64,000 nt of DNA, taken from positions 22,045,764 through 22,109,763 of the forward strand of contig NC_088306.1 of NCBI RefSeq assembly GCF_032854445.1, written 5' to 3'. The DNA comes from Liolophura sinensis. Taxonomy: Eukaryota; Mollusca; Polyplacophora; Chitonida; Chitonidae. Shown one piece after another: positions 22,752 through 64,000 of the stretch; within the stretch, counting starts at the first letter, position 1, and the number at the start of each line of letters is the position of its first letter. A program made the translations under genes and the position numbers. Under the pieces are notes generated by a model. It made no database searches. It had not been told where the DNA came from and saw nothing but the letters and a program-made list of their open reading frames with translations.

Positions 22752-23190
22752 TCATTGCTTTCCGGCTAGATGAGAACCCAAGACAAAACTTTCCGGCTTT
22801 CCGGCTAGATGAGAACCCAAGACAGAACTTTCCGGCTTTCCGGCTTGAGGAGAACCCAAGACAGAACTTTCCGGCTTTCCGGCTTGAGGAGAACCCAAGA
22901 CAAAACTTTCCGGCTTTCCGGCTTGAGGAGAACCCAAGACAGAACTTTCCGGCTTTCCGGCTAGATGAGAACCCAAGACAGAACTTTCCGGCTTTCTGGC
23001 TTGAGGAGAACCCAAGACAAAACTTTCCGGCTTTCCGGCTTGATGAGAACCCAAGACAAAACTTGCCGGCTTTCCGGCTTGAGGAGAACCCAAGACAAAA
23101 CTTTCCGGCTTTCCGGCTAGATGAGAACCCAAGACAGAACTTTCCGGCTTTCCGGCTCGAGGAGAACCCAAGACAACAAAACGATTATTC
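22752..23190 (+). repeat. 39-bp tandem array, about 11 copies
   Basis: Unit TTCCGGCTTGAGGAGAACCC plus AAGACAGAAC and spacer TTTCCGGC. It encodes FRLEENPRQNFPA in one frame and is open on both strands because 39 is a multiple of three. Copies alternate between CTAGATGAG and CTTGAGGAG types. It lies about 0.5 kb upstream of the CpG-rich 5' end of the YWTD gene. The 161-codon frame has no flanking coding sequence and is doubtful as a gene. Confidence 0.95.
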
Positions 23191-25389: not shown

Positions 25390-27888
25390 ATGCTGTTAGG
25401 ATGATTGTCACAACTGTGCTGTTGGGATGATTGTCACAACTGTGCTGTTGGGATGATTGTCACACCTGTGCTGTTGGGATGATTGTCCCATCCGTGCTGT
25501 TGGGATGGTTGTCACAACTGTGCTGTTGGGATGGTTGTCACACATGCCCTGTTGGGATGATTTTCACATCCGTGCTGTTAGGATGATTGTCACACCTGTG
25601 CTGTTGGGATGATTGTCACACCCGTGCTGTTGGGATGATTGTCACTTCAGTGCTGTTGAGATGATTGTCACACCCGTGCTGTTGGGATGATTGTCACACC
25701 CGTGCTGTTGGGATGATTGTCACACCCGTGCTGTTAGGATGGTTGTCACACCTGCCCTGTTAAGATGATTGTCACATCCGTGGCGTTAGGATGGTTGTCA
25801 CACCTGCGCTGTTAGGATGATTGTCACATCCGTGCTGTTGGGATGATCGTCACACCTGCGCTGTTGGGATGGTTGTCACACCTGCGCTGTTGGGATGATT
25901 GACATATCCGTGCTGTTGGGATGATTGTCACATCCGTGCTGTTTGGATAATTGTCTCACTCGTGCTGTTGGGATGATTTTCGCACCCGTGCTGTTGGGAT
26001 AGTTTCCCCATCCGTGCTGTTGGGATGATTGTCACACCCGTGCTGTTGGGATGATTGTCACACACGTGCTGTTACGATGGTTGCCACACCTGCGCTGTTG
26101 GCACGGTTGTCACACCTGCGCTGTTAGGATGATTGTCACATCAGTGCTGTTGGGATGATTGTCACATTAGTGCTGTTGGGATGATTGTCACATCCGTGCT
26201 GTTGGGATGATTGTCACACCCGTGCTGTTGGGATTATTGTCACACACGTGCTGTTACGATGGTTGCCACACCTGCTCTGTTGGGATGGTTGGCATACCTG
26301 CGCTGTTAGGATGATTGTCACACCCGTGCTGTTCGGATGATTGTCACACCCGTGCTGTTGGGATGATTGCCCCATCCGTGCTGTTGGGATGATTGCCCAT
26401 CCGTGCTGTTGGGATGATTGTCACACCCGTGCTGTTAGGATGGTTGTCATACCTGCGCTGTTAGGATGATTGTCACACCTGTGCTGTTGGGATGATTGTC
26501 ACACCCGTACTGTTGGGATAATTGTGACATTGGTACTGTCCGGATGATTGTCACACCTGTGCTGTTGGGATAATTGTTACACCCCTGCTGTTGGGATGAT
26601 TGCCCCATCCGTGCTGTTCGGATGATTGTCACAACTGCGCTGTTGGGATGGTTGTCACCCCTGTGCTGTTAGGATGATTGTCACTTCAGTGTTGTTGGGG
26701 TGATTGTCACATCGGTGTTGTTGAGATGATTGTCAGACCCGTGCTGTTGGGATGATTGTCTCACACCTGTGCTGTTGGGATGATTGTCCCATCCGTGAGG
26801 TTGGGATGATTGTGATACCCGTGCTGTTGAGATAATTGCCCCATCCGTGCTGTTGGAATGATTGTCACACCAGTGCTGTCAGAGTGATTGTCACACCCGT
26901 GCCGTTGGGATGATTGTCACATCTGTGCTGTTGGGATGATTGTCACACCCGTGTCGTTGGGATGATTGTCACACCCGTGTCGTTGGCATAATTGTCACGC
27001 CCGTGCTGCTGGAATGATTGTCATAACAGTGCAGTTGGGATAATTGCCCCATCCGTGCTGTTGGGATGATTGTCACATCCGTGCGGTTGGAATGATAGTC
27101 ACACGCGTGTTGTTGGGATGATTGTCACCTCCATGCTGTTGGGATGATTGTCACACCAGCCCAATTGGGGTGATTGTCACACCCATGCCGATTGATGATT
27201 GTCACATCCGTGCTGTTGGAATGATTGTCACACGCGTGCTGTTGAGATGATTGTCACATCCGTGCTGTTGGGATAATTGTCACATCAGTGCTGTTGGGAT
27301 GATTGTCACACCCGTGCTGTCGGGATGATTTTCACACCCGTGCTGTTGGAATAATTGTCACACCCGTGCTGTCTGGATGATTGTCATACCAGCCCTATGG
27401 GGATGATTGTCACACCCGTGCTGTTGGAATAATTGTAACACCCGTGCTGTTGGGATGATTGTCATACGCGTGCTGTTGAGATGATTGTCACATCCGTGCT
27501 GTTAGGATGATTGCCACGTCCGTGCTATTGGGATGATGGTCACACCCATGCTGTTGAGATGATTGTCACATCTGTGCTGTTGGGATGATTGTCACGCCAG
27601 TGGTGTTGGAATGATCGTCACATACATGCTATTGGGATGATTGTCACATCCGTGCAGTTGAGATGATTGTCACATCCGTGCAGTTGAGATTATTGTCACG
27701 CCAGTGGTATTGGAATGATTGCCACATCCGTGCTGTTGGGATGATTGTCACGCCAGTGGTATTGGGATGATTGCCACATCTGTACTGTTGGGATGATTGT
27801 CACGCCAGTGGTATTGGGATGATTGCCACATCCGTGCTGTTGGGATGATTGTCACGCCAGTGCTGTTGGGATGATTGTCACACTCCCG
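25390..27888 (+). repeat. 26-bp minisatellite, about 95 copies
   Basis: The unit is GTGCTGTTGGGATGATTGTC plus ACACCC, with many substitutions and occasional indels. The last 300 bases have a 52-bp double unit. There are no conserved spacers, so it is not a CRISPR-type array, and there is no frame conservation. Confidence 0.97.
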
Positions 27889-29489: not shown

Positions 29490-29835
29490 TTTCAATGTTA
29501 TTGCATAAGGACTACGCATAAGGACAACGTGTAATGGTTTTTTCAATGTTACTGTGTAAGGACTACGTGTAATGATATTTTCAATGTTATTGTGTAACGG
29601 CTATGTGTAATGATATTTCCAAGGCTATTGTATAAGAACTACGTGTAATAAAATTTTCAATGATGTTGTGTAGGGATTACGTGTAATGATATTTCCAAGG
29701 CTACTGAACTACGTCTAAGGACTACGTGTAAAGATTATTGTAGAAGGACTACATGTGATGACAATTTCAAGATTGTTGTATAAAGACTACATGTATATGC
29801 AATGATATTTTTACGCTTATTGTATAAGGTCTACA
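29490..29835 (+). repeat. Degenerate tandem repeat of about 40-45 bp
   Basis: GGACTACGTGTAATGATATT and TTCAATGTTATTGTGTAA recur irregularly, about 8 times, with decay towards 29830. Confidence 0.75.
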
Positions 29836-31376
29836 GGTTCCTGTTCTCGCCACGATATGGCTGAAATATTGCCGGTGTGACGTTCAGCCAGATGATTCAG
29901 GTTCCTGTTCTTACCCCGATATGGCTGAAATATTGCCGATGTGACGTTCAGCCAGATGAATCAGGTTCCTGTTCTCACCACGATATCGCTGAATTATTGC
30001 CGATGTGACGTTCAGCCAGATGATTCAGGTTCCTGTTCTCGCCACGATATGGCTGAAATATTGCCGATGTGACGTTCAGCCAGATGATTCCGGTTCCTGT
30101 TCTCGCCACGATATGGCTGAAATATTGCCGATGTGACGTTCAGCCAGATGATTCAGGTTCCTGTTCTCGCCACGATATGGCTGAAATATTGCCGATGTGA
30201 CGTTCAGCCAGATGATTCAGGTTCCTGTTCTCGCCACGATATGGCTGAAATATTGCCGGTGTGACGTTCAGCCAGATGATTCCGGTTCCTGTTCTCACCT
30301 TGATATGGCAAAAATATTGCCGGTGTGACGTTCAGCCAGATCATTAAGGTTCCTGTTCTCGCCACGATATGGCTGAAATATTGATGGTGTGACGTTCAGC
30401 CAGATGAATCAGGTTCCTGTTCTCGCCACGATATGGCTGAAATATTGCCGGTGTGACATTCAGCAGAATGATTCAGGTTCCTGTTCTCACCACAATATGG
30501 CTGAAATATTGCCGGTGTGACGTTCAGCCAGATGAATCAGGTTCCTGTTCTCACCACGATATGGCTGAAATATTGCCGGTGTGACGTTCAGCCAGATGAT
30601 TCAGGTTCCTGTTTTCGCCACGATATGGCTGAAATATTGCCGGTGTGACGTTCAGCCAGATGATTCAGGTTCCTGTTCTCGCCACGATATGGCTGAAATA
30701 TTGCCGGTGTGACGTTCAGCCAGATGATTCAGGTTCCTGTTCTTGACACGATGTGGCTGAAATATTGCCGGTGCGACGTTCAGCCAGATGATTCAGGTTC
30801 CTGTTCTTGCCACGATATGGCTGAAATATTGCCGGTGTGACGTTCAGCCAGATCATTCAGGTTCCTGTTCTCGCCACGATATGGCTGAAATGTTGAAGGT
30901 GTGACATTCAGCAGAATGATTCAGGTTCCTGTTTTCGCCACGATATGGCTGAAATATTGCCGGTGTGACGTTCAGCCAGATGAATCAGGTTCCTGTTCTC
31001 ACCACGATATGGCTTAAATATTGCTGGTGTGACGTTCAGCCAGATGATTCAGGTTCCTGTTCTCACCACGATATGGCTGAAATATTGCCGGTGTGACATT
31101 CAGCAGAATGATTCAGGTTCCTGTTCTCACCACGATATGGCTGAAATATTGCCGGTGTGACGTTCAGCCAGATGAATCAGGTTCCTGTTCTCACCACGAT
31201 ATGGCTTAAATATTGCTGGTGTGACGTTCAGCCAGATGATTCCGGTTCCTGTTCTCACCACGATATGGCTGAAATATTGCCGGTGTGACATTCAGCCAGA
31301 ACATTCAGGTTCCTGTTTTCGCCACGATATGGCTGAAATATTGCCGGCGTGATGTTCAGACAGATCATTCATTCAT
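29836..31376 (+). repeat. 64-bp tandem array, about 24 copies
   Basis: The unit begins GGTTCCTGTTCTCGCCACGA, then TATGGCTGAAATATTGCCGG, then TGTGACGTTCAGCCAGATGA. It starts at 29836, 29900 and 29964 and so on. It ends at a CATTCATTCATTCATT run. The middle of the unit resembles the SINE-C tail (ATATGACTGAAAAATTGTTG, TACGACGTTAAACCCC). Confidence 0.95.
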
Positions 31377-34854: not shown

Positions 34855-36760
34855 GAGCTGACAAACACCCCTAAAAATCTTTGACACAAACAAACAAGAG
34901 CCAGAGACAACATCTGACAAACATCCCGACTCACATAACCCTTTGACAACCAAATAGAGGAAAGGATGAACATCCGATAAACCATGTCAAATAAATAACA
35001 GACAAACCTCCCGACTCTCAAACCTTTGACAAACTTGTCAGAGCCAAAGATGTATACCTCTGACAAACAACGAAAGCGTATTCTCTCACGCTTCAGCCAG
35101 AGGCAAAAATGAATATCTGACAAACATCTGAATTCACAAGAGCCAAAGATTTAGATCAGACAAACATCCGGAATCATAAAACCCATTGGCAAACGAGTCA
35201 GGGACAATGACAAAGATCACACAAACATCCGGAATCATAAACCCTTTGACAAACCCCCCAGAGGCAATGATGAAGATCACATAAACATCCGGAATCATAA
35301 ATCCTTTGACAAACCCTTCAGAGCCAATGATGAAGATCAGACAAACATCCGGAATCATAAACTCTTTGACAAACCCGCCAGAGGCAATGATAAAGATCAC
35401 ACAAACATCCGGAATCATAAATCCTTTGACAAACCCGCCAGAGCCAATGATGAAGATCACACAAACATCCGGAATCATAAACCCTTTGACAAACCTGCCA
35501 AAGCCAATGATGAAGATCACACAAACATCCGGAATCATAAACCCTTTGACAAACCTGCCAGGACCAATGATGAAAATCACACAAACATCCGGAATCATAA
35601 ACTCTTTGACAAACCCTCCAGAACCAATGATGAAGATCAGACAAACATCCGGAATCATGAACCCTTTGCCAAAGCCGCCAGGACCAATGATGAAGATCAC
35701 ACAAACATCCGGAATCATAAACCCTTTGGCAAAGCCGCCAGGACCGATGATGAAGATCACAAACATCCGGAATCATAAACCCTTTGGCAAAGCCGCCAGG
35801 ACCGATGATGAAGATCACACAAACATCCGGAATCATAAACCCTTTGGCAAACTCTCCAGAGCCAATGATGAAGATCAGACAAACATCCAGAATCATAAAC
35901 CCTTTGGCAAAGCCGCCAGGACCAACGATGAAGATCAGACAAACATCCGGAATCATAAACTCTTTGACAAACCCTCCAGAACCAATGATGAAGATCAGAC
36001 AAACATCCGGAATCATAAACCCTTTGGTAAAGCCGCCAGGACCAGTGATAAAGATCACACAAACATCCGGAATCATAAACCCTTTGACAAACCCGCCAGA
36101 GCCAATGATGAAGATCACACAAACATCCGGAATCATAAACCCTTTGGTAAAGCCGCCAGGACCAGTGATAAAGATCACACAAACATCCGGAATCATAAAC
36201 CCTTTGACAAACCCGCCAGAGCCAATGATGAAGATCACACAAACATCCGGAATCATAAACCCTTTGACAAACCTGCCAAAACCAATGATGAAGATCACAC
36301 AAACATCCGGAATCATAAACCCTTTGACAAACCTGCCAAAACCAATGATGAAGATCACACAAACATCCGGAATCATAAACCCTTTGACAAACCCGCCAGA
36401 GCCAATGATGAAGATCACACAAACATCCGGAATCATAAACCCTTTGGCAAAGCCGCCAGGACCAACGATGAAGATCAGACAAACATCCGGAATCATAAAT
36501 TCTTTCACAAACCCGCCAGAGCAGAGGGTAAGCATCTAACACACATTCGGACTCGTGAAACCTTTTGACAAAACGCGCAAATACCAAAGAGGATGATCAG
36601 ACAAACGTCCTTAACTATAAAATCCATTGGCAAACGATCCAGAACCAAAGATGAACGTCTGAGAAATACCCGGACTCACACACCCCTTTGACAAACCAGC
36701 AAAAACCGATGATTAAGATCAAAAAATCATCCTGATTCACAAAGCCCTTTTACATCCAAG
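34855..36760 (+). repeat. 60-bp tandem array, about 25 good copies with decayed edges
   Basis: The unit begins ACAAACATCCGGAATCATAA, then ACCCTTTGACAAACCCGCCA, then GAGCCAATGATGAAGATCAC. The core 35150-36540 is nearly regular and the flanks decay on both sides. One unit near 35700-35760 is 58 bases. The long frames (up to 420 codons) on both strands are explained by a period divisible by three and carry no flanking coding sequence. Confidence 0.97.
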
Positions 36761-42529: not shown

Positions 42530-43300
42530 AAGTAAAACTGTAACTAAACCAGAGTTGTCTTCTAATCTCTTGATCCGTATATTCATGGTGCCACGTGATA
42601 TGGACACTCCAAGACTTTCTCAAGAAAACAGTTTATCATTCGAAACTGGCGACATACCGAAGGTATTTTTATTTGAATCTTTAGAGTTACGTTAGGTTTT
42701 CATGACAAAATTGAATAGGGTTAAGTTGAAATATAAGTTAACAGATAATACCACACGTTAGGCAAACTCTTATTTTAAGTATAAGGAACCCTCACCCTGC
42801 CTTGATGGAACTTTCAAAAATTAAAAAAAAAATCACAAATCAATTTTTCGCAACGTTCGTCGTAAATCACGTTAAAACACTACTTTTTTAATAACTGAAG
42901 TTGCTGAAACACCCTCACTGTCATTTCTTAAAAAAAAATTACGAGAATTTTTTCTACGAGAAGTGTGTCTTTTAATAATGGTCATAGCGCGATATGCAAC
43001 GAAAACTGTCCATACTATATAGGAAGAAGCGTTGTGTGTAAATATAACACAAAACAAAAAAAGATTTTGACGTCATGAATATAACGTTACAATGCACACG
43101 TCAGTACTGGGATGCAAACCATAAATGCCATCAAGCTAGAACGTCATTCAACCATAATGACGTCAGCGCAGTACAGTACAACGCAGTGGATCAAAACTTA
43201 ACGCCTACGTCACAATCAGGAAGACGTAGCTCATGGACACCAGTGAGCACGAGTGAGTATGCAGGGTGGCATTCCCTCCGTGGGATCTGAACTCACACAT
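42530..43300. other. Upstream region of the kinase gene
   Basis: About 0.8 kb of AT-rich sequence turns more GC-balanced from about 43070. No clear TATA box or splice acceptor defines a start site. Several GACGTCA-type words lie at 43067-43074, 43140-43146 and 43158-43164. Confidence 0.3.
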
Positions 43301-43349
43301 AATGGACTAAGAAGAGAGGTCATTTTGTGAGCAGCGTTGGGAAACAGAC

Positions 43350-46300
43350 ATGGGAAGACGGCTACGCCGGCTGCGACGATTTGCAAACCAAACGGTGCAG
43401 GTTGTCCGCAGGTCATCGTGGTTTTACGTCTGCTGCGGTAGAAAGACAGAAATAACTACACCCCACGCCGTCCGTTTGACCTCGGTGATTAGGGAGACTG
43501 GTTCCATGCGGGTCCGAGCAGTAAGTCCCACAGCGGTCCCTAGGGGACTATGCAGCAGTTGTCCCTGGAGAAGCTATGCTGTGAGACACAACAGTCCTTC
43601 CGCAGATGGTACGGATCTGGGCGCAAAACTACAAATCGCGGATGACTCCATTGCACCGGACACTGAGATCAACTGGCAGCCCATTCAGGCGGACTCTCGG
43701 CACAGTCAAGACTCCCGCGGAGTCACGCCTTCAAGCACCAAACAGTTCCCGGAAGTGATCCCATGTTCATGCCACGACTGCAGAGAGGTGAGTTTGAACT
43801 TCGATCTCCAAGATCAGATCGTAGGAACTTTCTCAAACAATGACCATGAGGGTGGTTATAACTCAACTTATGATCAGGAAGGAGATTCCGATTCAAGTTA
43901 TGAACATGAAGGTGGTTCCAACTCAGCTTATGAACACTTAGGCGGTTGTGAGTCAATTTATGATCCTGAAGGCGGCACCAACTCTACCGATCAGTGTGAA
44001 GGCGCAACCAACTCAACTTTTAATCAGGAATGTGGTTCATCTTCAACTTACGATAATGAAGGAGATTCTAACTCAACTTATTGTGATGAAGGTGGTTCCA
44101 ACTCAACTTTTTATCATGATGGCGTTTGCAACTTAACTGATGGCCACGAAGGCGTTCCTATCTCAACTGATGACAATGATGGCGGTTTCATGTCAACTGA
44201 TCATTATAAAGGCGGATCCAACTCAACTTATGATCAAGAAGGAGGCCGTAACTCAGGTCATGATTACCAAGGCGGTCGCAACTTAACTTATGATTACGAA
44301 GGCATTTCCAACTCAACAGATCATTACGAAGGCGGGTCCATCTCAACTTACGATCACGAAGGCGGTTCCAGCTTAACTTATGATCACAAAAGCTCCTACT
44401 CCACTCCTCATCACGTAGCCGGTCCCAACTCAACTTATTATCTCGAAGGCGGCTGTAACTTAACTTACGACCACGAAGGCGGTTCTAAATTAACTTATGA
44501 TCACAAAAGTGGTTCCAACTCCACCCCTCACCATGTAGGCGGTCCGAGCTCAAACTATGATCTCGAGGGCGACTGTAACTTAACTTATGATCATGATGGC
44601 GATCCCAACTTAACATATGGCCACAAAAGTGGTTTCAACTCCACCCCTCACCATGTAGGCAGTCCCAACTCAACTTATAATCTCGAAGGCGGCTGTAACT
44701 TAACCTATGATCCTGAAGGTGGCTGTAACTTAACTTATGATCATGAAGGCGGCTCCAGCTCAAATTATGATTGCGAGGACGTTTCCAACCCAACTGATCA
44801 CCATGACGGTGGTTCCAACTTCATTTATGATCACGGAGGCGGTTGCAAATCAACTTATAATCACGAAGGCTGTTCCAACTTTATTTATAATCCTGAACGT
44901 ATTTCCAACCCATCTGATCAACACGAGGGGGCTTCCAACTCCACTGATCATCATCAAGAAGGTTCTAACTCAACTTCTTATCACGAAGGCGGTTTCAACT
45001 CCACTGATCATGATGACGACGCTTATAACTCAACGTTTGATCACGAAGGCGGTTCCAACGCAACTGATCATCACGAAGGCGATTCCAAATTGACTTACGT
45101 CCATGGAGGCGATTCTAAATCAACTTATGTTCATGAAAGCAGGTCCAACTCAACTGATCGCCATAAAGGTGGTTTCAACTTAACTGATCATCGCGAAGGT
45201 GATTCTAATTCAACTTTTGATCACGAAGGCGAATCCAACTCCACTGATCATTACAAAGGCAGTTCCATCTCAACTTATGATCACAAAGGCTGTTCCATCT
45301 TCACTCATAATCATGAAGATATTTCCAATTCATCTGATCATCACGAAGATGGTTCCAATTCCAATGATCACCATCAAGATGGTTCTAACTCAACGTTTAA
45401 TCAAGAAAGCGGTTCCAACTCCACTGATCATCATGAAGATGGTTCCAACACAACTAATCACCACGAAGGCGGTTCCAACACAACTGATCATCACGAAGGC
45501 GGTTCTAAATCACCTTATGTTCATGAAAGCAGGTCCAACTCAAATGTTCGTCATAAAAGTGGTTCTAACTCAGCTGATCATCACGAAGGCGGTTCCAACT
45601 TAACTTACGATCACAAAAGTGGTTCCAACTCCACCCCTAATCACGTAGGCGGTCCCAACTTAACTTATGATCATGAAGGCGGCTCCAGCTCAAATTATGA
45701 TCACGATGAAGTTTCCAACCCAACTGGTCATCAAGAAGGTGGTTTCAACTTTATTTATGATCACGAAGGCGGCTGCAAATCAACTTATAATCACGAAGGC
45801 GGTTGCAAATCAACTTATAATCATGAAGGTATTTCCAGCTCTTCTGATTATCACGAAGGCGGTTTCAACTCCACTGATCATCATGACGATGTTTATAACT
45901 CAACGTTTGATCACGAGGGCTGTTTCAACGCAACTGATCATCACGAAGGCGGTTCCAACTTGACTTACGATCATGAAGGCGATTCTAAATCAACTTATGT
46001 TCATGAAAGCAGGTCCAACTCAACTGATCGTCATAAAGGTGGTTCCAACTCAACTGATCATCGCAAAGACGACTCTAATTCAACTTTTGATCACGAAGGC
46101 AGATCCAACTCAACTTATGATCATGAAGGCTGTTCCAACTTCACTTATAATCATGAAGATATTTCCAATTCATCTGGTCATCACGAAGATGGTTCCAACT
46201 CCAATGATCACCATCAAGATGGTTCTAACTCAGCGTTTAATCACGAAGGCGGTTCCAACTCCACTGATAAGCATGAAGATGGTTCCAACACAACTGATCG

Positions 46301-49300
46301 TCACGAAGGCTATTCCTACTTAACTTATGATCATGAAGGCGATTCCAGCTTAACTTATGATCATGAAGGCGGTTCTAAATCACCTTATGTTCATGAAAGC
46401 AGGTCCAACTCAAATGATCGTCTTAAAAGTGGTTCCAACTCAGCTGATCATCACGAAGGCGGTTCCAACTTAACTTACGATCACAAAAGTGGTTCCAACT
46501 CCACCCCTTATCACGTAGGCGGTCCCAACTTAACTTATGATCATGAAGGCCGCTCCAGCTCAAATTATGATCACGATGAAGTTTCCAACCCAACTGGTCA
46601 TCAAGAAGGTGGTTTCAACTTTATTTATGATCACGAAGGCGATTGCAAATCAACTTATGATCACGAAGGCGGTTGCAAATCAACTTATGATCACGAAGGC
46701 GGTTGCAAATCAACTGATAATCATGAAGGTATTTCCAGCTCATCTGATCATCACGAAGGCGGTCCCACCTCCAATGATCATCATGCAAATGATTCTAACT
46801 CAACGTTTGATCAGGAAGGCGGTTTCAACTCAATTGACCATCACGAAGGCGGTTCCAGCTTGACTTACGATCATGAAGGCGATTCTAAATCAATTTCTGT
46901 TTATCAAAGCAGGTCCAACTCAATTGATCGTCATAAAGGTAGTTCTAGATCAACTTTTGATCACGAAGGCGGATCCAACTCAACTAATTATGATGAAGGC
47001 TGTTCAAACTCAACTGCTCATCATGAAAGCCGTTACAACTCGTATTATTGTCACGAAGGCGGTTCCAATTCCACTAATGATCATGTAGGTGATTCTAACT
47101 CAACTTATCATTACGAAGGCGGCTCCAACTACACTTGCCAAAATCTAACTCAAGCGTTTTCCAACCAAAATATTGTGCCTGTTGAAGGAGGTCATGGAAA
47201 TGGTGAAAACTCTCCAGAAATGACCGAAAATTCTGATGAAATTCTGACCCTGTTTCTCCGGAGACAGAGTAATGAGATGAACCAACAAAGAGTCAAAAGC
47301 GTCCCCCAATCACCACGTGAACATTCTGGAGCGGCGGTCATGGCATCCCGTGAAAGACTTAGCACTGCATTTGAAAGATCCAGTGACGAACTGGACGATG
47401 CGGATTGGTGTATTTTGGAGAGGTCAGAAAGTGCATCGCCCAGTGAGCAACTACATAAGGAGACGCATGGATCAAGCCAATTCCCACAATCCTCACCTTC
47501 ACCCCCAAATTCTCCTACGGCGCCCGTGTCAGATACTTCAACCATTCCAGTGTCATCTGCCACGGTCGCTGTAGTATCAATTCCAGATGTCCTAAATGAC
47601 GCTATGGGATTTATTTTAGATAACATCTCAGAGGCTCCAACACCAATTCTAGATAGAAATGATGAGGCTCTACTAGCAATTCCAGATACACCTCTAGCAA
47701 ATCCAGTATCAACTATAGGCAGCATTGCAACAGTTTCAGCACCGCTGACGAACAACATTTGTAAAACACCGGCGCAAACGCCTGGTAGCCCTGAAGTGAC
47801 TTCACAATCAAGATCACACACCTCTACAGAGTCAGTTGTAGATACCAGTTCTCGGACTGAAGTATCAAATGTGGATGCCAGTCTGCCTATGTCCGTGTCA
47901 GAGGTGGACGCCGCGGCAACACCTTCAATTACATCTTCGGGCACCGATGAAGTCAGTTCCATATCAAGTTCAAATAACACAAAAGAATTTCGTGTTCAAA
48001 CTATCGATGGCACTGTAGTAAATTCGGTATCAAATGTAGCGTTGCCAGGACCTGTTTTAAACACTATAACAACGACTCCAGTTCAATCTCTGGACATCAC
48101 AGTAACGATTTCAATCCCATGTCGTGACATCAACGGCGAGACTGGAGTGGGAGCTACAGAAATGTCTGCATTGACTCCAATGCCAACTCTGAATACCACT
48201 GCGGCAGTGACTGGCGACACATATTTAGATAGCATGATTAGAGCTACAACCGTGGCAAGTACAGTGGCCGTTGTAGAAATGGCAGTGGCCCCGATACTTA
48301 CTCTAGATACCATTGTAGTGCCTACACGAATAACCCCAGCACAAAATCCTCCTACGACTGCAGCAAATGCAATTACAGGTAATTATACGTTGTCTACAGC
48401 ATCAGCTGTTAATACCACACGCACTCCATCCACTTTAGCGTCAGCTTCAGATGGCGCCACAACCTTTTCACTTCCCACGATAGTCATTACTCCAGCGGAT
48501 TCGGTTCCGTCCTCTACAGCTGAGGCGATTCCTGATTCAATGCTAAATCCTACGACAGCGGTTCAAATTTTCAAACAAGATTCCCACAAAGCGATACAAG
48601 TCCCTAGTGTACATTCTAACAGAACTATCCTGCAGATCAGAGAAGTTAGTGACTCGGACACTGTAGCAGTTAAAGATTCAGGAAAGATTCAGAACATTCC
48701 GTCGGACCACAAAATTTCACAAAAACCACTAGAAGAAGGAAATATCTATTGGAACACTGTGCCGTCGTGTGACAGTCATTTAAAGCGGGAGGAACATATT
48801 TCAGTTCAAACGAAAGAATCAAGATCCAATGAGCAGGATAAGGCATCTTCCTCGCAGTCACAGGTCATGAAGCATGACTTGACACAGGCAGAAAACAAAA
48901 GGCTTCCAGACACCGATAAAGAATCACAGGGATATGTGCCGTGTGATAAGACTACACCAAATACGTTAATAAACACACCTACCCCCTGTCTCCAAGGCAC
49001 GACACAGCGTTGTCCAATCAAAGACAAGGCGGAAAACCGAAAACCTTGTTCGTGCACCAGGCAGTCTTACCTCGGAAAATCTAGTTTCCCGGGATGCAGT
49101 TATTGTGCCATCGGCGTCAGTCCACAGCAGAGATTAGAAAAGTACTTCCGGACAAATCCTGTCCCAGACAACATGGATTCGGAGACAACGCTAGAGATGG
49201 CGAGACGTCATGTATGCAACGTTCAGCGGGCTACCGCCCTTAAAGAAGAAAACCAGAAACGCGTGAACATTGATCCCTTCCCTCTATCAGATACCGCGTG

Positions 49301-50345
49301 TCCGCCCGTTACCGCGCCGCCGGATCTCCACGTGGAGTACGCCGTGAACGACGAATGGTACCGCATCTATCCGGTAGAGTGGTCCATTCAGCAGAACATT
49401 ACGACGCACGGATCGGGTGTAGTGGACCTGGCAATGCTCGGTGAGTACAATAAACAGATAGCTCTGAAGACTATGCCGGTAGAGGACAGCAAAAGGGAGT
49501 ATAAGTTGATCAAAGAATGCCAAGGCCCTTTCGTGGTTCAGCTATGTGCCTCATTGGTCCAGGGCGACACAAGATACCTGTGCATGACGTACTACGAGCG
49601 GCGAGACCTGGCAAGGTGGTTGAAGAGAGACGACAGGAGGAAGTATTTCGGACCGGTAGAATCTATGTGGATCTGCGGATACATCCTGGCTGCCATCGAG
49701 TTCATCCACGACAAAGAAATCTTGCATCTGGACATCAAACCAGGCAACATTTTGATTCACAACAAGGGCTACCCCGTGGTGGGAGACTTTGGTTCTGCCC
49801 GGAGAATGGAAGAGCTACAAGCGCAGCGAGACAATTTCCCTTTCACTCTGGCATATGCGTCTCCAGAGGTGCTCGCAGGAGTAAAGCCAACTCGTCTGGC
49901 CGATCTTTGGCCTTTAGCTTGTATTTACTACGAGCTCATGACGTCCAGAACACCTTTCCAACGCACCGACAATATCGAGGTTCAGCTCAAGCAGACACTG
50001 GAGTCCACACCACACTTTTCTGGGCTGCAAGGCAAGGCGAGAAACTTCGTCGTGTCACAGCTGAGAACAAAGATAACGGATCGACTCGGCTACAACGGTG
50101 GAGCACGGGAAGTCATGCGACACCCGATCTTTGACAAACTGGACTGGGCAGAGGTAAAATACGCACATCGTCACTCAAACAGTCGACTTCTAGGCGTCTT
50201 CAAACAGATTGAGCGTGACGAGAGAGAGGCGAAGAACAGACCGGGCCCAATTCCACCTAACCCCTTCCTTTATCGCAGAAGGAATGTCATGTTCAGTAGC
50301 AAAGGCCACAACCCTAAAAACAACAACAATCACTATATATTTTAA
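43350..50345 (+). CDS. Giant single-exon repeat protein with C-terminal AGC-like kinase domain (2331 aa)
   Basis: One open frame of 2331 codons. The start is supported by an in-frame TAA at 43308-43310 and by G at -3 and +4 of the ATG. Layout: residues 1-35 are Arg-rich with almost no acids; about 138-143 hold CSCHDC; about 160-1265 are roughly 110 tandem decapeptides rich in Asp, His, Glu, Gly, Ser, Asn and Thr; about 1270-1950 are a Ser/Thr/Pro-rich, probably disordered linker with a second Cys cluster near 1900-1915 (CSC, CSYC); about 1990-2280 are a protein kinase. Kinase landmarks: GSGVV in the glycine loop, IALK (beta-3 lysine), REYKLIKE (helix C Glu), HLDIKPGN catalytic loop, GDFGSA, SPE in place of APE, and DRLG with HPIF and LDW typical of AGC kinases. 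The catalytic residues needed for phosphotransfer are present. The HRD arginine is Leu. Substrate and role are unknown. No signal peptide or membrane segment is evident. Confidence 0.9.
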   Translation: MGRRLRRLRRFANQTVQVVRRSSWFYVCCGRKTEITTPHAVRLTSVIRETGSMRVRAVSPTAVPRGLCSSCPWRSYAVRHNSPSADGTDLGAKLQIADDSIAPDTEINWQPIQADSRHSQDSRGVTPSSTKQFPEVIPCSCHDCREVSLNFDLQDQIVGTFSNNDHEGGYNSTYDQEGDSDSSYEHEGGSNSAYEHLGGCESIYDPEGGTNSTDQCEGATNSTFNQECGSSSTYDNEGDSNSTYCDEGGSNSTFYHDGVCNLTDGHEGVPISTDDNDGGFMSTDHYKGGSNSTYDQEGGRNSGHDYQGGRNLTYDYEGISNSTDHYEGGSISTYDHEGGSSLTYDHKSSYSTPHHVAGPNSTYYLEGGCNLTYDHEGGSKLTYDHKSGSNSTPHHVGGPSSNYDLEGDCNLTYDHDGDPNLTYGHKSGFNSTPHHVGSPNSTYNLEGGCNLTYDPEGGCNLTYDHEGGSSSNYDCEDVSNPTDHHDGGSNFIYDHGGGCKSTYNHEGCSNFIYNPERISNPSDQHEGASNSTDHHQEGSNSTSYHEGGFNSTDHDDDAYNSTFDHEGGSNATDHHEGDSKLTYVHGGDSKSTYVHESRSNSTDRHKGGFNLTDHREGDSNSTFDHEGESNSTDHYKGSSISTYDHKGCSIFTHNHEDISNSSDHHEDGSNSNDHHQDGSNSTFNQESGSNSTDHHEDGSNTTNHHEGGSNTTDHHEGGSKSPYVHESRSNSNVRHKSGSNSADHHEGGSNLTYDHKSGSNSTPNHVGGPNLTYDHEGGSSSNYDHDEVSNPTGHQEGGFNFIYDHEGGCKSTYNHEGGCKSTYNHEGISSSSDYHEGGFNSTDHHDDVYNSTFDHEGCFNATDHHEGGSNLTYDHEGDSKSTYVHESRSNSTDRHKGGSNSTDHRKDDSNSTFDHEGRSNSTYDHEGCSNFTYNHEDISNSSGHHEDGSNSNDHHQDGSNSAFNHEGGSNSTDKHEDGSNTTDRHEGYSYLTYDHEGDSSLTYDHEGGSKSPYVHESRSNSNDRLKSGSNSADHHEGGSNLTYDHKSGSNSTPYHVGGPNLTYDHEGRSSSNYDHDEVSNPTGHQEGGFNFIYDHEGDCKSTYDHEGGCKSTYDHEGGCKSTDNHEGISSSSDHHEGGPTSNDHHANDSNSTFDQEGGFNSIDHHEGGSSLTYDHEGDSKSISVYQSRSNSIDRHKGSSRSTFDHEGGSNSTNYDEGCSNSTAHHESRYNSYYCHEGGSNSTNDHVGDSNSTYHYEGGSNYTCQNLTQAFSNQNIVPVEGGHGNGENSPEMTENSDEILTLFLRRQSNEMNQQRVKSVPQSPREHSGAAVMASRERLSTAFERSSDELDDADWCILERSESASPSEQLHKETHGSSQFPQSSPSPPNSPTAPVSDTSTIPVSSATVAVVSIPDVLNDAMGFILDNISEAPTPILDRNDEALLAIPDTPLANPVSTIGSIATVSAPLTNNICKTPAQTPGSPEVTSQSRSHTSTESVVDTSSRTEVSNVDASLPMSVSEVDAAATPSITSSGTDEVSSISSSNNTKEFRVQTIDGTVVNSVSNVALPGPVLNTITTTPVQSLDITVTISIPCRDINGETGVGATEMSALTPMPTLNTTAAVTGDTYLDSMIRATTVASTVAVVEMAVAPILTLDTIVVPTRITPAQNPPTTAANAITGNYTLSTASAVNTTRTPSTLASASDGATTFSLPTIVITPADSVPSSTAEAIPDSMLNPTTAVQIFKQDSHKAIQVPSVHSNRTILQIREVSDSDTVAVKDSGKIQNIPSDHKISQKPLEEGNIYWNTVPSCDSHLKREEHISVQTKESRSNEQDKASSSQSQVMKHDLTQAENKRLPDTDKESQGYVPCDKTTPNTLINTPTPCLQGTTQRCPIKDKAENRKPCSCTRQSYLGKSSFPGCSYCAIGVSPQQRLEKYFRTNPVPDNMDSETTLEMARRHVCNVQRATALKEENQKRVNIDPFPLSDTACPPVTAPPDLHVEYAVNDEWYRIYPVEWSIQQNITTHGSGVVDLAMLGEYNKQIALKTMPVEDSKREYKLIKECQGPFVVQLCASLVQGDTRYLCMTYYERRDLARWLKRDDRRKYFGPVESMWICGYILAAIEFIHDKEILHLDIKPGNILIHNKGYPVVGDFGSARRMEELQAQRDNFPFTLAYASPEVLAGVKPTRLADLWPLACIYYELMTSRTPFQRTDNIEVQLKQTLESTPHFSGLQGKARNFVVSQLRTKITDRLGYNGGAREVMRHPIFDKLDWAEVKYAHRHSNSRLLGVFKQIERDEREAKNRPGPIPPNPFLYRRRNVMFSSKGHNPKNNNNHYIF
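43830..47140 (+). repeat. Coding 30-bp tandem repeat, about 110 copies
   Basis: The region encodes a decapeptide of the form DHEGGSNSTY, with frequent N-x-S/T triplets and one to two His per copy. Spacing is 30 bp throughout, apart from a single 3-bp loss near 44395, so the frame is never broken. Similar variant strings recur at 44761, 45691 and 46561, showing a second level of repetition of 29-31 units. Confidence 0.95.
49380..50190 (+). other. Protein kinase domain of the repeat protein
   Basis: Subdomains can be followed in order: glycine loop near residue 2022, beta-3 Lys in IALK, helix C Glu, DIKPGN near 2126, DFG near 2146, SPE near 2171, the helix F Asp in ADLW, and the AGC-type end ITDRLG with a following HPIFDKLDW. 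In GRK, PKA and PKC kinases the equivalent segment reads RLG, then HPFF-like, then DW. HLD replaces HRD, so the arginine that contacts an activation-loop phosphate is missing (non-RD type). Confidence 0.85.
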
Positions 50346-50578: not shown

Positions 50579-50584
50579 AATAAA
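50579..50584 (+). terminator. AATAAA polyadenylation signal of the kinase gene
   Basis: AATAAA lies about 235 bases after the stop codon at 50343-50345, followed by an A/T-rich and then T-rich stretch near 50640-50665. It is the first canonical signal downstream of the frame and suggests a short 3' UTR. Confidence 0.6.
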
Positions 50585-58400: not shown

Positions 58401-61400
58401 AAATTCATGCCACCAAGAAATCAATTTTATTTATTTACTTCATTGGTGTTTTACGCCGTACTCAAGAATATTTCACTTATACGACGGTGGCCAGCATTAT
58501 GGTAGGAAGATACCGAGCAGAGCCCCGGGGGAAACCCACACCAAGAATTAAGCCATTAACACTATTTCTAGAGTCTTCAGTACGACCAGTCTTGGAGTTG
58601 AACCATTTGTTGTCGGAAGAGGCGACATTATACAGGCTAGACATTTTTTTTTGCAACTTCTCAGCTCAGAGAGCATACCATCTTGCTAGTGGCTCACACA
58701 AGGACTCAGCAGAAACAAGCCATTGTGTCCACTGGACTCGCTGCTGCCTGATCCTTGCTTGTGACAACACAGTACAAAAACATACTTGAAAGTTTACCTG
58801 TCTGAATTTTCACCCTGTACAATTTTGACGTAAACTGGTCGTTAACTGTGAACAGGTGATCTGATTCTGAAACAGAGTTAAGTTAGATTTTGTTACAAAT
58901 AGCTTTGAAATAAAACATTCATATTTTCTCTTTTACACTGTTTTACACTTGCCTCTCTACACGCAAGTAATTTACATTTTTACCACGAATTACTTGATCC
59001 TGATAAAGAAATTGTTATTGCAAAATGTCATTTGCGTTTTGCATGCTTATTTTACAGGTATGAACTTTTATCTTTTCGATAATTTTCCACTACATATGCT
59101 TAGCTACTGTGCTTACTCAAGGTCCTGTTAACATTCCTACTTTCAGTTTAACTTTCTCACCTATTTCCTTAGTCTTTGGCTCCTTGTGTAAAATTCTCTG
59201 TGTGATTTTTCCCAGAGCCAAAGACTGTATTGCTCTCATCAAGTCTCGCTCTGGTATGTCTGTCTCTGTCTTTATTTCCTGTAAATAAATAAATACATAC
59301 ATGAAGAACAGTAGAAGTTGTTTTCAATCTTTTGGGGTTTTTTTGCAGCATTTCAGCACAATAGAGTTTATCAGGGATGTTAACCATTAACCTGGAAGTC
59401 ACAGGTACAAATATCACAGGGTAAACAGTTCGACATCTCATGCAATGCCATTACTTTCTCTGCACCGTTCTATTTCTGTGACGTCACAACTACTTTTGCT
59501 TTATGAAATCACACTGCAACTTTTGCACTACCACAAAATGTGATGAATTATGACATTTATTGAAAAGGTAATTGTTTAATTCTGATATTTGTTATAGCTT
59601 TCAGCTAAAATTGGCAATAAAATGGCGCTTTTTCTCATGGACGTGCATACATTTAAATCTGATTTATTTTACCTTCTGTTCAAATTAAAACAATTTGTTT
59701 TCATTTATTAACTTATCATCACTCTCTTACATTTTAACATTTAAAAGTTTGGGCCTCAGCATCAGCCTTACTTCATAGGTGCATTTTTCCCTATTGTTGA
59801 ACAGCATCAGTATACACATCTGGTATGTGGACACTTGGATGATGTGTTTGCGAGGTCCTGTCTTTGAAACACTGGACGCTCCGTTTTCTCCACTGTCTTC
59901 TCTCTTTGCGCCGAAAAATGTGGCGTTGAGATCTGCTGAACCCAGCTGAGGCTGTAAAGTCAGTTGTCTTCCACTGTGTTTGGCCAAATAAAATCTGAAA
60001 ACGAAACGTGTTACTCAAGTACGAGATATTTCATCTTGTATCAAATTTGTTTCGCTTACTTGAATCAGGGTTCAAGCAGCACGATATTTGGTTAAACTCA
60101 GGACTTTCCAGGACAATTTCAGGTGGTTGCATGACTTTTTTTAAGACTGATTATCCTCACCACTGCATAGTGCTGTCCTCTTTTCTTGTGGACAATTGAT
60201 CATTAGCCATTCGCAAGTATTTTCTCATGTACAAATGACATATCAACAACAAATTAAATATCTTTCTCCCCTTAAATGTCAAGAATTTGGAACCTAAATC
60301 AAGCAGCCACTGTGTCAATAAACAGATTGGGATGGGTTGTTTTTCTCATCATTTTAATTCATTTCCAGGACCCCCAAATAAATTCAATGACCTGCACAAA
60401 AATTCCATGGCTTTCAAAGTCTGGAAATTTTACTTTCATATTCCATGTCTTTCCACATATTTTCCAGGTCATCAACACTGACAATACGGCTAATGGCTAA
60501 TATGAACATTTCAGGAGACGTCATGAGAACAGAGTGACGTCTCTTTACAAGATTTGGTCACTTTTACAGTACCGCAGTGTCAATCTGCTCATTTTAACAT
60601 GGGCGGTAATAATAGAAAATTAAATGAACAGGATTACATTCATTTTCTGAATTACATGTACATGTATATTATTGGATGTGTTTGGTTGTCAAATATTACA
60701 AAAATAGTGATATTTGATATAACCTGCTAGCAGTTTCATCTAAACATGAATAAAGCTATGCTAAAAGACAAATAGCCATATTGTGCCGTAAAGCACTTGG
60801 GTGTCATTCTGTTTGCATAATGAGACAACTCAAAAACTGCAGTTTCCTCCCACCATAATGCTGGTCTCTGTGGTATAATTAAAATTTTCTTTAGTAAAAC
60901 ACCAATCACATAAACAAACAAATGAAAAACTGTACACAGTATAGAGATCCCTTAAGTGAAAACTTGTTATGGAAACTATGACATGAAGTCATTACTCACA
61001 GCGTATGGGACCATGATGAACCTCTTGGATGCCTCTAAAAGACAGACATTCTTATTTCCAGAATATGGACAACGATCCACATTTTACTGCATTACTCTCT
61101 GGAGACAGAGATTTGACCTCAGTCATTTATTTATTTGACTTGAGTTTTACGCTGTACTCAAGAATATTTCACCTTAAGAAATGACAATTTCACTTTCACC
61201 ATGACCATCCACAGGTTACTGGCAGACCTTTTTACGTGTGACTGGAGAGGAAGCCATCATCAGCTGGACTTGAACTCACAGTGACTGCACTGGTGAGAGT
61301 TTCTGAGTTATTGTGCTGCACCACCCCTAGGCCACAAAGCCCTCAACCGCTCGGTAAGTTTTGGGCAATTCAACCCTCTTGACAAATCTTACCTCCTGAA

Positions 61401-63026
61401 CGTTTCAAATGCCATTCTCGGGGCATGAGGAATACTGCATTGTGGGGTAGCAGACTGAGTTGGCCAGAACCCAGTTGTTAAAACTCGAACAAATAAATCT
61501 ACTCCATGAAGGTTAGTCTGAAACAGTATAACAAAGCTAATTCAGAGACTTTATATCCCATGTTAAATATGCAAACCTTTGTTTTCAAACTTAATCTGAA
61601 GAGCCACAAAATGAATGAATGCATACAAACTTGAATAATCTTTGAAGCAGTTATTACATCGAATCTAAAAACATGACAGACAGACAGACAAACGCAAATT
61701 TATATCCCTCACCATCGGCGAAGCTCGAGGGGAAAAAAAAAAAAAAAAAAAGCAGACCATGGATCGAAATTACATATGTATTTTTGGAAAGAGAACGGAT
61801 ACAACAGAAAACCCCTTATGGTGTCATAGGATATGTTGTTTCACACTACTGGGGTTCTTCAACCTTTTCGCATGTTTGCTAAGTGTTAGCAAAGCATATT
61901 CTGAAGGCATTCTTCTTCGTAGACTGTTACTTTTTTGCTTTTTGTGAAACCCGGCAAATGGCCAATCCAACCAATGTAGTTTTTTCTCCAAACTGAAATT
62001 ACAAACATTTGCATAAAATGCACTCAAAACTGCTCTTCAATATGCAAAAAGATTGAGGAATTAGGGTATTTTTTTATGTTTCATATAAAATAACATAAAA
62101 AAGGTACATTTATAGTCACAATCTGTATAATTATGGGCCCCTTCCACAACTATTTCCACAATTGTGAGCTAATGCACTCACCCCTCACAGAACATTGCCT
62201 TACCTCTGACTGTTGTATATGGTTCTTGAATTCTTCCATTGTTGTATTGGATACTGTCATGTCTTTGAACATGCCCTCTAGCTTGGAAGTAAATTGACAA
62301 CCACACTCAGTCTGCAAGAACAATACAAAACAAACTGGCTTTATAGTCTTAACACTGTGTTATGTTATGCCACACCAGATAAAATTTTTATTTTACGGGC
62401 AGAATGAATCAACTTTTCGATGTCCGAGGGGGTTTAAAACTAACAATAAAACTGAAAAATCATCTAATTTGTGGTAAATGGGGACTGTCCTAACGATTGT
62501 TCCTGATAAACACATATTCTGTAACCAGAGAGCCTTGAAAATCATGAAGAAAAAAAAAAAAATTCCGATCAGGCAAAATAAAGAGGATGTAATCCAAATT
62601 TTACTTTTGCTCCATTTTCTGTCTGTATAACACAAAATAAAACTGGTCTAGTGTTACAGCATAAGAAAGCAACACAAATTCCCAATATTATGTGAGGTCT
62701 CATCATTATATTGTTCATTTCTTGGCCTTGTCAGAGAAAACTAACATGCTAAGTGTAATTATTATTATTCACCAAAAAAATCTGTGGACTGGACGAAAAA
62801 GGTATTCTAATTGGTCAATCTCTAACCCTATTAAGAAGTCAAACCCTTCCTGCACCTTAAGTTTGGAGATCATATTCTTCTCAGAGTCATCTGATACACT
62901 TTTGTTGAGCAGTAAACGTTTTGCCAAATGCTGTTTGTAGTAACGTTCAAAGACATCTTTGTCCTGAAGGAAGCGGAATAGCACCATGCTTTTGTCCAGC
63001 ACGTTCTCGATTTCCTGTTCTGACAT
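55406..63026 (-). CDS. CUL3: Cullin-3 (CUL3), last ten coding exons, 5' part beyond window
   Basis: CUL3 is the scaffold of BTB-adaptor CUL3-RBX1 E3 ubiquitin ligases. Coding segments on the minus strand are 63026-62856, 62311-62204, 61517-61393, 59994-59772, 59278-59161, 58866-58798, 58059-57987, 56839-56770, 56187-56081 and 55430-55406. They total 1089 bases, or 362 residues plus a stop, and all phases agree. The known animal protein is about 768 residues, so these exons cover roughly the C-terminal half: four-helix bundle, alpha/beta RBX1-binding domain and the two winged helices with the NEDD8 site. Diagnostic strings include [30 protein letters not shown] and RKVYTYVA at the C-terminus, which separate CUL3 from CUL1, 2, 4 and 5. 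The upstream exons (N-terminal cullin repeats, BTB-binding face) would lie above 64000. I found none between 63027 and 64000. Confidence 0.95.
56081..56187 (-). CDS. CUL3: CUL3 exon: winged helix B
   Basis: The exon has 35 codons plus two bases: [20 protein letters not shown] then [15 protein letters not shown]. It is almost identical to the vertebrate protein, as I recall it. The acceptor is TGTACAG and the donor AG|GTACAA. Confidence 0.95.
56440..56535 (-). mobile_element. SINE-A 3' fragment in CUL3 intron, reverse
   Basis: ATTTATTTATTTGATTGGTG, AAAAACATTTCACTTATACG, ACAGCCGCCAGCATCATGGG. Confidence 0.8.
56770..56839 (-). CDS. CUL3: CUL3 exon with the NEDD8 acceptor lysine
   Basis: The exon has 70 bases: [20 protein letters not shown] and LVAE. 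The Lys of IVRIMK (codon 56811-56809) corresponds to the neddylated lysine of animal cullins. The exon begins directly after an AC acceptor and ends at a normal GAG|GTAAGC donor. Confidence 0.93.
56840..57986 (-). other. CUL3: AT-AC U12-type intron of CUL3
   Basis: The 1147-base intron starts ATATCCTTTT and ends GCCTTAACCACCGTGTAC. The donor matches the U12 consensus. CCTTAAC is a strong U12 branch site, and its branch adenosine lies 11 bases before the exon, inside the usual 10-20 base range. No GT-AG pair restores the conserved HEIEAA junction. Confidence 0.9.
57987..58059 (-). CDS. CUL3: CUL3 exon ending at an AT-type (U12) donor
   Basis: The exon has 73 bases reading [18 protein letters not shown] and DEDRKH. 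After CATGA no GT donor fits; instead the intron opens with ATATCCTTTT, the U12 AT-AC donor consensus. Cutting there leaves two bases that pair exactly with the next exon. Confidence 0.92.
58425..58547 (-). mobile_element. SINE-A 3' half in CUL3 intron, reverse
   Basis: TTTATTTACTTCATTGGTGT, TTTACGCCGTACTCAAGAAT, GGCCAGCATTATGGTAGGAA, AGCCCCGGGGGAAACCCACA. It is inserted in CUL3 sense orientation. Confidence 0.88.
58798..58866 (-). CDS. CUL3: CUL3 short exon
   Basis: The exon has 69 bases encoding [20 protein letters not shown] with the conserved FTSK and the start of KIQTV. The acceptor is GTTTCAG and the donor ACAG|GTAAAC. It is too short to stand out as an open frame and was found from homology and phase. 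Confidence 0.93.
59161..59278 (-). CDS. CUL3: CUL3 exon: winged helix A
   Basis: The exon has 39 codons plus one base. It encodes [20 protein letters not shown] and ends KEPKTKEI. The acceptor is TTTACAG and the donor ATAG|GTGAGA. Confidence 0.93.
59772..59994 (-). CDS. CUL3: CUL3 exon: alpha/beta domain
   Basis: The exon has 223 bases completing a split Arg codon. It encodes [14 protein letters not shown] and [11 protein letters not shown], a variable Ser/Gly insert, then [17 protein letters not shown]. This is the region that packs with the RBX1 strand in known cullin structures. The donor is GAA|GTAAGG. Confidence 0.95.
60838..60926 (+). mobile_element. SINE-A 3' end in CUL3 intron, forward
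   Basis: AGTTTCCTCCCACCATAATG, CTGGTCTCTGTGGTATAATT, AAAACACCAATCACATAAAC. Confidence 0.75.
61122..61342 (-). mobile_element. SINE-A in CUL3 intron, reverse, internal deletion
   Basis: ATTTATTTATTTGACTTGAG, CTGTACTCAAGAATATTTCA, then CATGACCATCCACAGGTTAC, GGAGAGGAAGCCATCATCAG and GGACTTGAACTCACAGTGAC. Confidence 0.85.
61393..61517 (-). CDS. CUL3: CUL3 exon: LTTGFWPTQ segment
   Basis: The exon has 41 codons plus two bases, acceptor TTTCAG and donor GGAG|GTAAGA. It carries [18 protein letters not shown], with the nearly invariant cullin LTxGxWP motif, and ends in the FRR of the FRRFY junction. Confidence 0.95.
62204..62311 (-). CDS. CUL3: CUL3 exon: four-helix bundle
   Basis: The exon has 36 codons, acceptor TTGCAG and donor GAG|GTAAGG. 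It reads [18 protein letters not shown] and continues SNTTMEEF, the conserved segment directly after ISKLK in cullin-3. Confidence 0.95.
62856..63026 (-). CDS. CUL3: CUL3 exon: start of C-terminal domain
   Basis: The exon has 57 codons in phase 0, acceptor CCAG and donor AAG|GTGCAG. It carries the cullin signature [16 protein letters not shown] and the CUL3-typical [17 protein letters not shown]. Confidence 0.95.
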
Positions 63027-63147
63027 CTGGCAATAAAAACACACTCAGACCTGTATATTTCATGAATTTACATCAGTTTTTACATCACTGACATCAGCTG
63101 ATGATAAGTACTTCTCTACAGGAAATTATTTCCCATTATTCACAAAC

Positions 63148-63325
63148 ATGACTTTTATTTATTTATTTATTTGACTGGTGTTTTACACCGTACTCAAGAA
63201 TATTTTACTTATACAACGGCCGCCAGCATTATGGTGGGTGGAAACCCGCCATAGCCCAGGGGAAACCCACGACCATCTGCAGGTTGCTGGCAGACCTTCC
63301 CACATATGGCCACAAAACATTCTGG
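63148..63325 (-). mobile_element. SINE-A 3' half in CUL3 intron, reverse
   Basis: ATTTATTTATTTATTTGACT, TACACCGTACTCAAGAATAT, GCATTATGGTGGGTGGAAAC, CACGACCATCTGCAGGTTGC. Confidence 0.9.
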
Positions 63326-63329
63326 TACT

Positions 63330-64000
63330 TCTCTCAAAGGTGACTGACAGAAGTTTAGGTGTAAATGGAATATGCCTTTAAGTCTAAATCATGGATATAA
63401 CAATTGTTGAAAGGAATTAAGAAGCCTGAATATATAGCAATGTTGAACATAACCCGCCTCAAATTTCTGTGCAATGGGAAACTAGTGAACGGGCTAGTTG
63501 CTAAACAAAAGGGTTCAATTCACAGCATAACTCATCATTTTCTTCTGTGACAAGGCAGTGGTTGTGTATTACCTAGATGTTTCATGAACACACAGATAAC
63601 TGCGACATGATAAAGGAAAGAACAAAAAAGTTCCTAGTTTTGGAGTGCTTTGTTCGAGGTGGTAAGGAGTTTTACGTATTCCCCACGGAGCTCATAAAGC
63701 AAACCAGTAGTTCACAAGCACTGCAGCACAACAGCACTGAACGATGTGTTATTACACAGTTTGGAACGGACTTGTGTCAGCCAAAAACTGTTCGCAATTG
63801 CTTATCACCTGCTAATATCATTTGACATTATTAGCCCTCTTCAATAGGTAGCTTGACATCTGGAAATGTTAGGTTTATCTTAACATATCACTTTCTCAAC
63901 AGGCAATTCAAGACTATGAAGCAAATATCATCCAAAACTGACAGGCCAGAAAAAAAAGCATTTTCTAGATCCTTGCCAAGAGATCATTTAACAGTCACCT
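63330..64000. other. CUL3 intron, no further exon seen
   Basis: I looked on the minus strand for the exon that should precede the one at 63026 (in animal CUL3, as I recall, it ends near KKGVKG) and did not find it. It should lie beyond 64000. Confidence 0.5.

Follow-up and report, generated by a model that had tools for sequence, protein, structure and literature searches.

The window, the whole stretch of 64,000 nucleotides of chiton DNA that was analyzed, harbors a gene of 2331 codons in a single open frame, preceded by a dense group of CRE sites. The features of the gene and of its upstream DNA are:

43068..43075, unstranded, full CRE palindrome TGACGTCA
43098..43103, minus strand, CRE half site (ACGTCA on the plus strand)
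43141..43146, minus strand, CRE half site (ACGTCA on the plus strand)
43158..43165, unstranded, full CRE palindrome TGACGTCA
43207..43212, minus strand, CRE half site (ACGTCA on the plus strand)
43350..50345, plus strand, complete open frame of 2331 aa that needs no intron (ORF analysis)
43350..43529, plus strand, N-terminal motif of the family (aa 1-60), a basic stretch and then CxCCG-like cysteines (alignment of 14 N-termini; own-genome search)
43839..47138, plus strand, decapeptide array of ~110 units with the consensus DHEGGSNSTY (aa 164-1263)
47139..49058, plus strand, Ser/Thr/Pro-rich linker (aa 1264-1903; composition)
49059..49319, plus strand, pre-kinase segment (aa 1904-1990), matched only by the paralogues L009 and L010
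49323..50159, plus strand, AGC-related kinase domain (aa 1992-2270) with K, E, D, and DFG kept and a degenerate glycine loop
50160..50342, plus strand, short C-terminal tail without the AGC hydrophobic motif
50579..50584, plus strand, AATAAA polyadenylation signal (sequence read)

An earlier note on this DNA described an uninterrupted 2331-codon frame with a good start context, no intron, and about 1100 residues of DHEGGSNST-type repeats, all of which holds, the lack of introns being confirmed for the coding frame. The stop-to-stop frame starts at 43311, which places an in-frame stop just 5′ of the start at 43350, and the start context, with G at −3 and G at +4, is fair. The N-terminus matches that of L009 at 50% over 74 aa (BLASTP). 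The HiFi reads of assembly GCA_032854445.1 (Liolophura japonica) are described as averaging 8.3 kb at 14x (PMC11068029), so that single reads could span the decapeptide array.

The flanking genes do contain introns, as had been noted. Two frames that we take to be YWTD/LRP-like lie on the minus strand at 1100-2567 of the window, and exons of a cullin (PF00888 match), presumably Cul3, lie on the minus strand at 59150-64000. Nesting of the 2331-codon gene in Cul3 was considered and is not apparent, as the Cul3-like exons found, in a gene model that ends before the end of the cullin protein, lie on the minus strand from ~59.15 kb onward.

The kinase domain and its family

The 2331-codon gene is neither alone nor young; it is the largest member of an AGC-related, single-exon kinase family that has expanded in the chiton genome. 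PF00069 matches its product at aa 2021-2261 with an E value of 1.9e-39, and the domain retains the Lys, the alpha-C Glu, the catalytic Asp, the Asn, DFG, and SPE. The claim that all main landmarks are present thus stands for Lys, alpha-C Glu, Asp, DFG, and SPE and fails at two positions: the glycine loop reads THGSGVV, with one of its three glycines left, and HLD takes the place of HRD. Because the glycine loop is degenerate, activity of this kinase is not assured.

As judged by similarity, the kinase sorts with the AGC group without carrying an AGC tail, which agrees with its earlier description as AGC-like. When the PDB is searched with the family profile, the best 60 of 1044 matches are all AGC kinases (classed by their printed names), with RSK2 at the top (4.5e-39). 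A single-sequence search of the PDB yields 59 AGC kinases among the 60 matches listed, the other being PLK2, and reaches PDK1 at 1.3e-23. The closest sequence matches of the family are the RSK N-terminal kinase, PDK1, SGK, and PKA, and the family shares with AGC kinases an invariant F and W at the domain end. In contrast to AGC kinases, the gene has HLD for HRD and a degenerate glycine loop, and the AGC tail domain, whose accession we take to be PF00433, matches none of the 19 family members at E values up to 0.01. No FxxF/Y was found in the 61-residue C-terminal tail of the 2331-aa protein. The catalytic loop HLD(I/V)KP is common to Mos and the chiton kinase; however, L031, a single frame in the chiton genome that is presumably Mos-like, has no array and is not placed within the family by the tree.

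With the kinase domain as query, the complete chiton genome yields 52 matches at E 0.001, the best 19 of which form one family that includes the 2331-codon gene. These members are spread over 7 scaffolds, and in every one (19/19) the kinase lies in one stop-free open frame. Six further family loci (L020 and L024-L028) are broken or fragmentary, with stops or split frames. Fifteen of the 19 members share an N-terminal motif of the approximate form MGRRFRRLRRL..QVV.ITRR....C.CCG, while the other four (L018 and L019, all in the C5 cluster) begin with MAE(H/Y)TPxLVPKNPF (MAEHTPDLVPKNPF-like), an unrelated N-terminus. The nearest relatives of the 2331-codon gene are L009 and L010, a tandem pair with frames of 904 and 901 aa that are 68% identical to it in the kinase region and lack the array. 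In a maximum-likelihood tree, which carries long-branch warnings, the gene groups with L009/L010 at 99/99, and six chiton kinases from outside the family separate from it with 100/99.

The family is a mix of likely kinases and likely pseudokinases, since K, D, and DFG are all present in 12 of the 19 members (in nine together with an APE-like motif), whereas the other seven are missing one or more of the three. Seven members, found at L017, L018, and L019 (C5:13.46-13.48 Mb) and L021 (C1:64.6 Mb), have no activation segment as far as the APE motif, and four of the seven have HLN for HLD. On these grounds the seven are likely pseudokinases, yet they keep open frames, with dN/dS of 0.08-0.41 between copies. 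Among the literature matches listed, no chiton or mollusc kinase family of this sort was found; for the oyster, a kinome report counts 28 kinases of ambiguous class (PMC4883820).

CRE sites upstream of the family

The CRE-dense upstream DNA of the family, present in 12/12 non-redundant members, is new here. The 2331-codon gene has two TGACGTCA palindromes and three half sites in the 282 bp upstream of its start. Across a promoter set of 12 non-redundant family members, with 400 bp of upstream DNA each and palindromes counted twice, TGACGT/ACGTCA is the top-scoring 6-mer of all and occurs in 12/12 regions with 55 matches. The rest of the genome predicts 4.1, and 500 shuffles give 4.7 on average, with no more than 11 in any of them. 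The full TGACGTCA has 12 matches in eight of the 12 regions versus 0.18 in shuffles; among 8-mers, CGTCACAA ranks first and TGACGTCA second. For the same 12 genes, the downstream 400-bp flanks contain four matches and 27.4 kb of coding DNA contain 19. The sites are kept in all 12 members of this set, and the upstream DNA of the 2331-codon gene aligns with that of none of the 11 others at E 1e-3. Since the upstream DNA can be aligned in no more than two pairs, the CREs are not mere relics of recent duplication.

All 15 motif-bearing members have at least one CRE site per 400 bp (range 1 to 8), including a second motif-bearing C1 copy outside the 12-member set, which has two. The four C5 members with the other N-terminus have no site in 400 bp and one in 1 kb, and L017 has a single site, so that the CRE signature is not universal in the family. 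In the four copies of L018 and L019, it looks as though the anchor and the promoter were swapped together.

Controls were provided by 16 other kinase frames, some of them partial exons, from 15 of 20 loci fetched. Seven of them are labeled TSSK-like, a label that rests on similarity to an approximate human TSSK2 sequence. Within 1 kb upstream, these seven have 7, 6, 6, 5, 6, 1, and 7 CRE matches, and the nine other kinases have 2, 1, 3, 0, 1, 0, 3, 1, and 0; TSSK-like kinases thus exceed the others with a one-sided p of 0.002, or 0.014 when the partial-exon frames are left out, for a grouping drawn after the counts were seen. Among the TSSK-like kinases, L029, L030, L033, L034, L036, and L037 have five to seven half-site matches within 1 kb, numbers that resemble those of the family, and L039 has one. 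Within 400 bp, sites are found in only three of the seven TSSK-like kinases, and L038, which is not TSSK-like, has three. Five HSP70 genes, which form one cluster and are hardly independent, have no CRE site in ~970 bp upstream.

Membership of the 2331-codon gene in the TSSK family itself was rejected, as the tree places two chiton TSSK-like kinases outside the chiton family (100/99, with long-branch warnings). The kinase is 24.9% identical to the approximate human TSSK2 over 177 aa, and the chiton family belongs to a different kinase group than the TSSKs. An abalone TSSK1-like gene has four exons. The likeness to TSSKs lies in the facts that some TSSK genes are intronless and duplicated and that they depend on CREM in the mouse (PMC10454534). 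Mouse CREM is described as driving spermatid genes via CREs (PMC3091680, PMC10454534); Tssk2 and Tssk6 are reported to be bound by CREM and to be reduced when Crem is knocked out, and Tssk1, 3, and 5 to be reduced but not bound (PMC10454534). In the scallop, all five Tssk genes are reported to be expressed in spermatids and sperm, and two of the five are intron-free (PMC8042308). CREM is also reported at promoters of genes without a known sperm role, and in somatic cells CREs act as CREB/ATF sites (PMC3091680). Nothing that directly links CREs to mollusc spermatids was found among the literature matches listed.

The decapeptide array

TRF delimits the array at 43845-47130 as 109.6 copies of a 30-bp unit with 67% matches. 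Blocks within it recur every 28-31 units at 85-98% identity, which reflects expansion via segmental duplications of 28-31 units. The coding frame of the array contains no stop, and the five other frames contain 26 to 176. Without selection, 15.8 stops would be expected in the coding frame (minimum 6 in 1000 simulations of 91 in-register units, with base-specific rates taken from the array itself and units treated as independent), an expectation whose true value is lower because recurrence of the blocks makes the units non-independent. A chance frame over the array was rejected on these counts.

Amino acid constraint on the array is weak, as the units show a pN/pS of 0.64 relative to their consensus. 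Divergence hardly differs between codon positions (0.199, 0.184, and 0.225), and the frame is still kept with units that diverge ~20% from the consensus. The composition is strongly biased toward Ser, Gly, Asp, His, and Asn, and a charge-hydropathy plot places the array among disordered sequences and scores the remaining linker as ordered. The earlier note guessed that the array might form condensates, bind divalent metals, or be a mass substrate for the attached kinase; for the last guess, the array has only 11 RxxS/T sites in 1100 residues, a scarcity that would count weakly against it if the kinase is basophilic like AGC kinases.

Elsewhere in the genome, the array has only weak matches, the best of which, among the 150 scored out of 166 candidates, contains stops and has E 5.4e-7 and 35% identity. 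Three of four other family loci scanned with TRF have in-frame repeats between the N-terminus and the kinase (L017, 156 bp; L021, 42 bp; L015, 51 bp), whose units are unrelated to those of the array and are all multiples of three; no repeat was found by TRF in L009. Tandem arrays are common across the window, so that repeat growth as such is ordinary and the unusual trait is its size inside a conserved kinase gene. A 60-bp tandem array of ~27 copies at 35139-36754, whose longest open frame reaches 427 codons and whose five other frames stay open for more than 200, is probably a non-coding minisatellite with chance frames. Two more large minisatellites, with 96 copies of a 26-bp unit and 24 copies of a 64-bp unit, lie at 25391-27883 and 29834-31371 with all frames stopped, and a 39-bp repeat of 10.8 copies at 22757-23176 has three frames open (FRLEENPRQNFPA).

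Origin, role, and precedent

The earlier note suggested a retrocopy or a young, fast-growing gene, which the comparison with the family contradicts. Between the 2331-codon gene and L009, pS is 0.78 (synonymous sites saturated) and pN is 0.20, values that point to an old duplicate with a conserved kinase and not to a young retrocopy. The kinase is under purifying selection: dN/dS could be obtained for nine of 15 family pairs and is 0.08-0.41, several of these values being based on few changes. Another five pairs were saturated, and the remaining one lacked synonymous changes. A young processed retrocopy was rejected on the synonymous divergence from the nearest paralogues, which are themselves single-frame. 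The lack of introns speaks for recent retroposition, as do parts of the array that are 98% identical and thus mark recent array growth; however, the whole family (19/19) is intronless, which leaves a recent origin true only of the array and, for the gene as a whole, hardly credible. No intron-bearing parent gene was identified in the kinase-domain search of the genome, and retroposition, if there was any, would have occurred in the family founder. Delivery of the kinase by a virus or mobile element would fit the missing introns and the dispersed and tandem copies, some of them broken, but viral contigs yield only remote kinases (seven loci, best segments 22-37% identical, partial domain), and this origin is very improbable.

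For the role of the gene, the explanation put forward here, which is judged just on the probable side, builds on the family membership, the purifying selection on the kinase, the single open frame through the array, and the dense upstream CREs. A bZIP factor of the CREB/CREM/ATF type would transcribe most of the family, and transcription would take place in male germ cells, most likely spermatids, by analogy with the control of TSSK genes by CREM in mammals. This germ-line step is proposed because the seven TSSK-like controls carry CREs. By that analogy, the CRE-bearing promoters of the family suggest a sperm-cell role without proving it. The basic, cysteine-rich N-terminus may, from its composition, tether the protein, and the array would serve as a disordered, hydrophilic spacer, determining how far the C-terminal kinase reaches and how concentrated it is locally. 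The linker would lengthen by in-frame tandem duplication because, it is proposed, the family tolerates or selects fast change in this region.

The same family and promoter logic could instead operate in somatic cells, where CREB is reported to bind the CRE (PMC3091680), with the members acting as stress, neuroendocrine, or immune kinases driven by CREB/ATF and the array as a spacer or scaffold. The control counts, which track TSSK-likeness within 1 kb, and the clustered HSP70 stress genes, whose ~970 bp of upstream DNA contain no CRE, argue against the somatic assignment, which appears rather unlikely. A different doubt concerns the array alone, which may be neutral baggage, that is, a minisatellite that arose within a tolerant linker, does nothing by itself, and is retained because its unit length is divisible by three. 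Several other minisatellites in the window, one with a 427-aa chance frame, fit this view, as do the pN/pS of 0.64, the nearly equal divergence of the codon positions, and the fact that L009 and L010 do without an array. Against it stand the strongly biased composition of the units and a frame held despite ~20% unit divergence, although the latter may merely reflect the need to translate the downstream kinase. Neutrality of the array is quite conceivable, if somewhat short of probable, and does not conflict with the view of the gene as a CRE-driven, tethered kinase.

The CRE-driven, germ-line reading can be extended to a set of lineage-specific sperm-cell kinases and pseudokinases, 15 of 19 of them under one CRE code, in which arrays have grown independently in a fast-evolving linker between anchor and kinase, here to 1,100 residues and perhaps still with changing copy number, possibly via sperm competition or another germ-line conflict. 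This extension is speculative and its truth doubtful. If the male-germ-line reading is true, a kinase family has been recruited to the CRE-based program of the TSSK kinases, and its members, with and without arrays and with likely active or dead kinases, provide natural replicates for probing giant disordered linkers on kinases. An isolated oddity has become a family with a common regulatory signature that is open to test on public data.

The statement in the earlier note that no kinase family is known to have such an architecture does not stand in light of R45/FIKK (PFD1175w) of Plasmodium falciparum, which is described as having ~90 hexapeptides of His, Lys, Ser, Asp, and Asn in one of ~20 paralogues (PMC1079819). 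In both lineages, one member of an expanded kinase family has gained short repeats that are absent from its paralogues (PMC1079819). This likeness, as drawn from the description of R45, is one of architecture and history only. In contrast to the chiton protein, R45 belongs to a separate kinase family, is exported by the parasite, and is encoded by three exons, and its repeats interrupt the kinase domain between subdomains III and IV (PMC1079819). The kind of architecture thus has a precedent, while repeat position, gene structure, and promoter signature differ.
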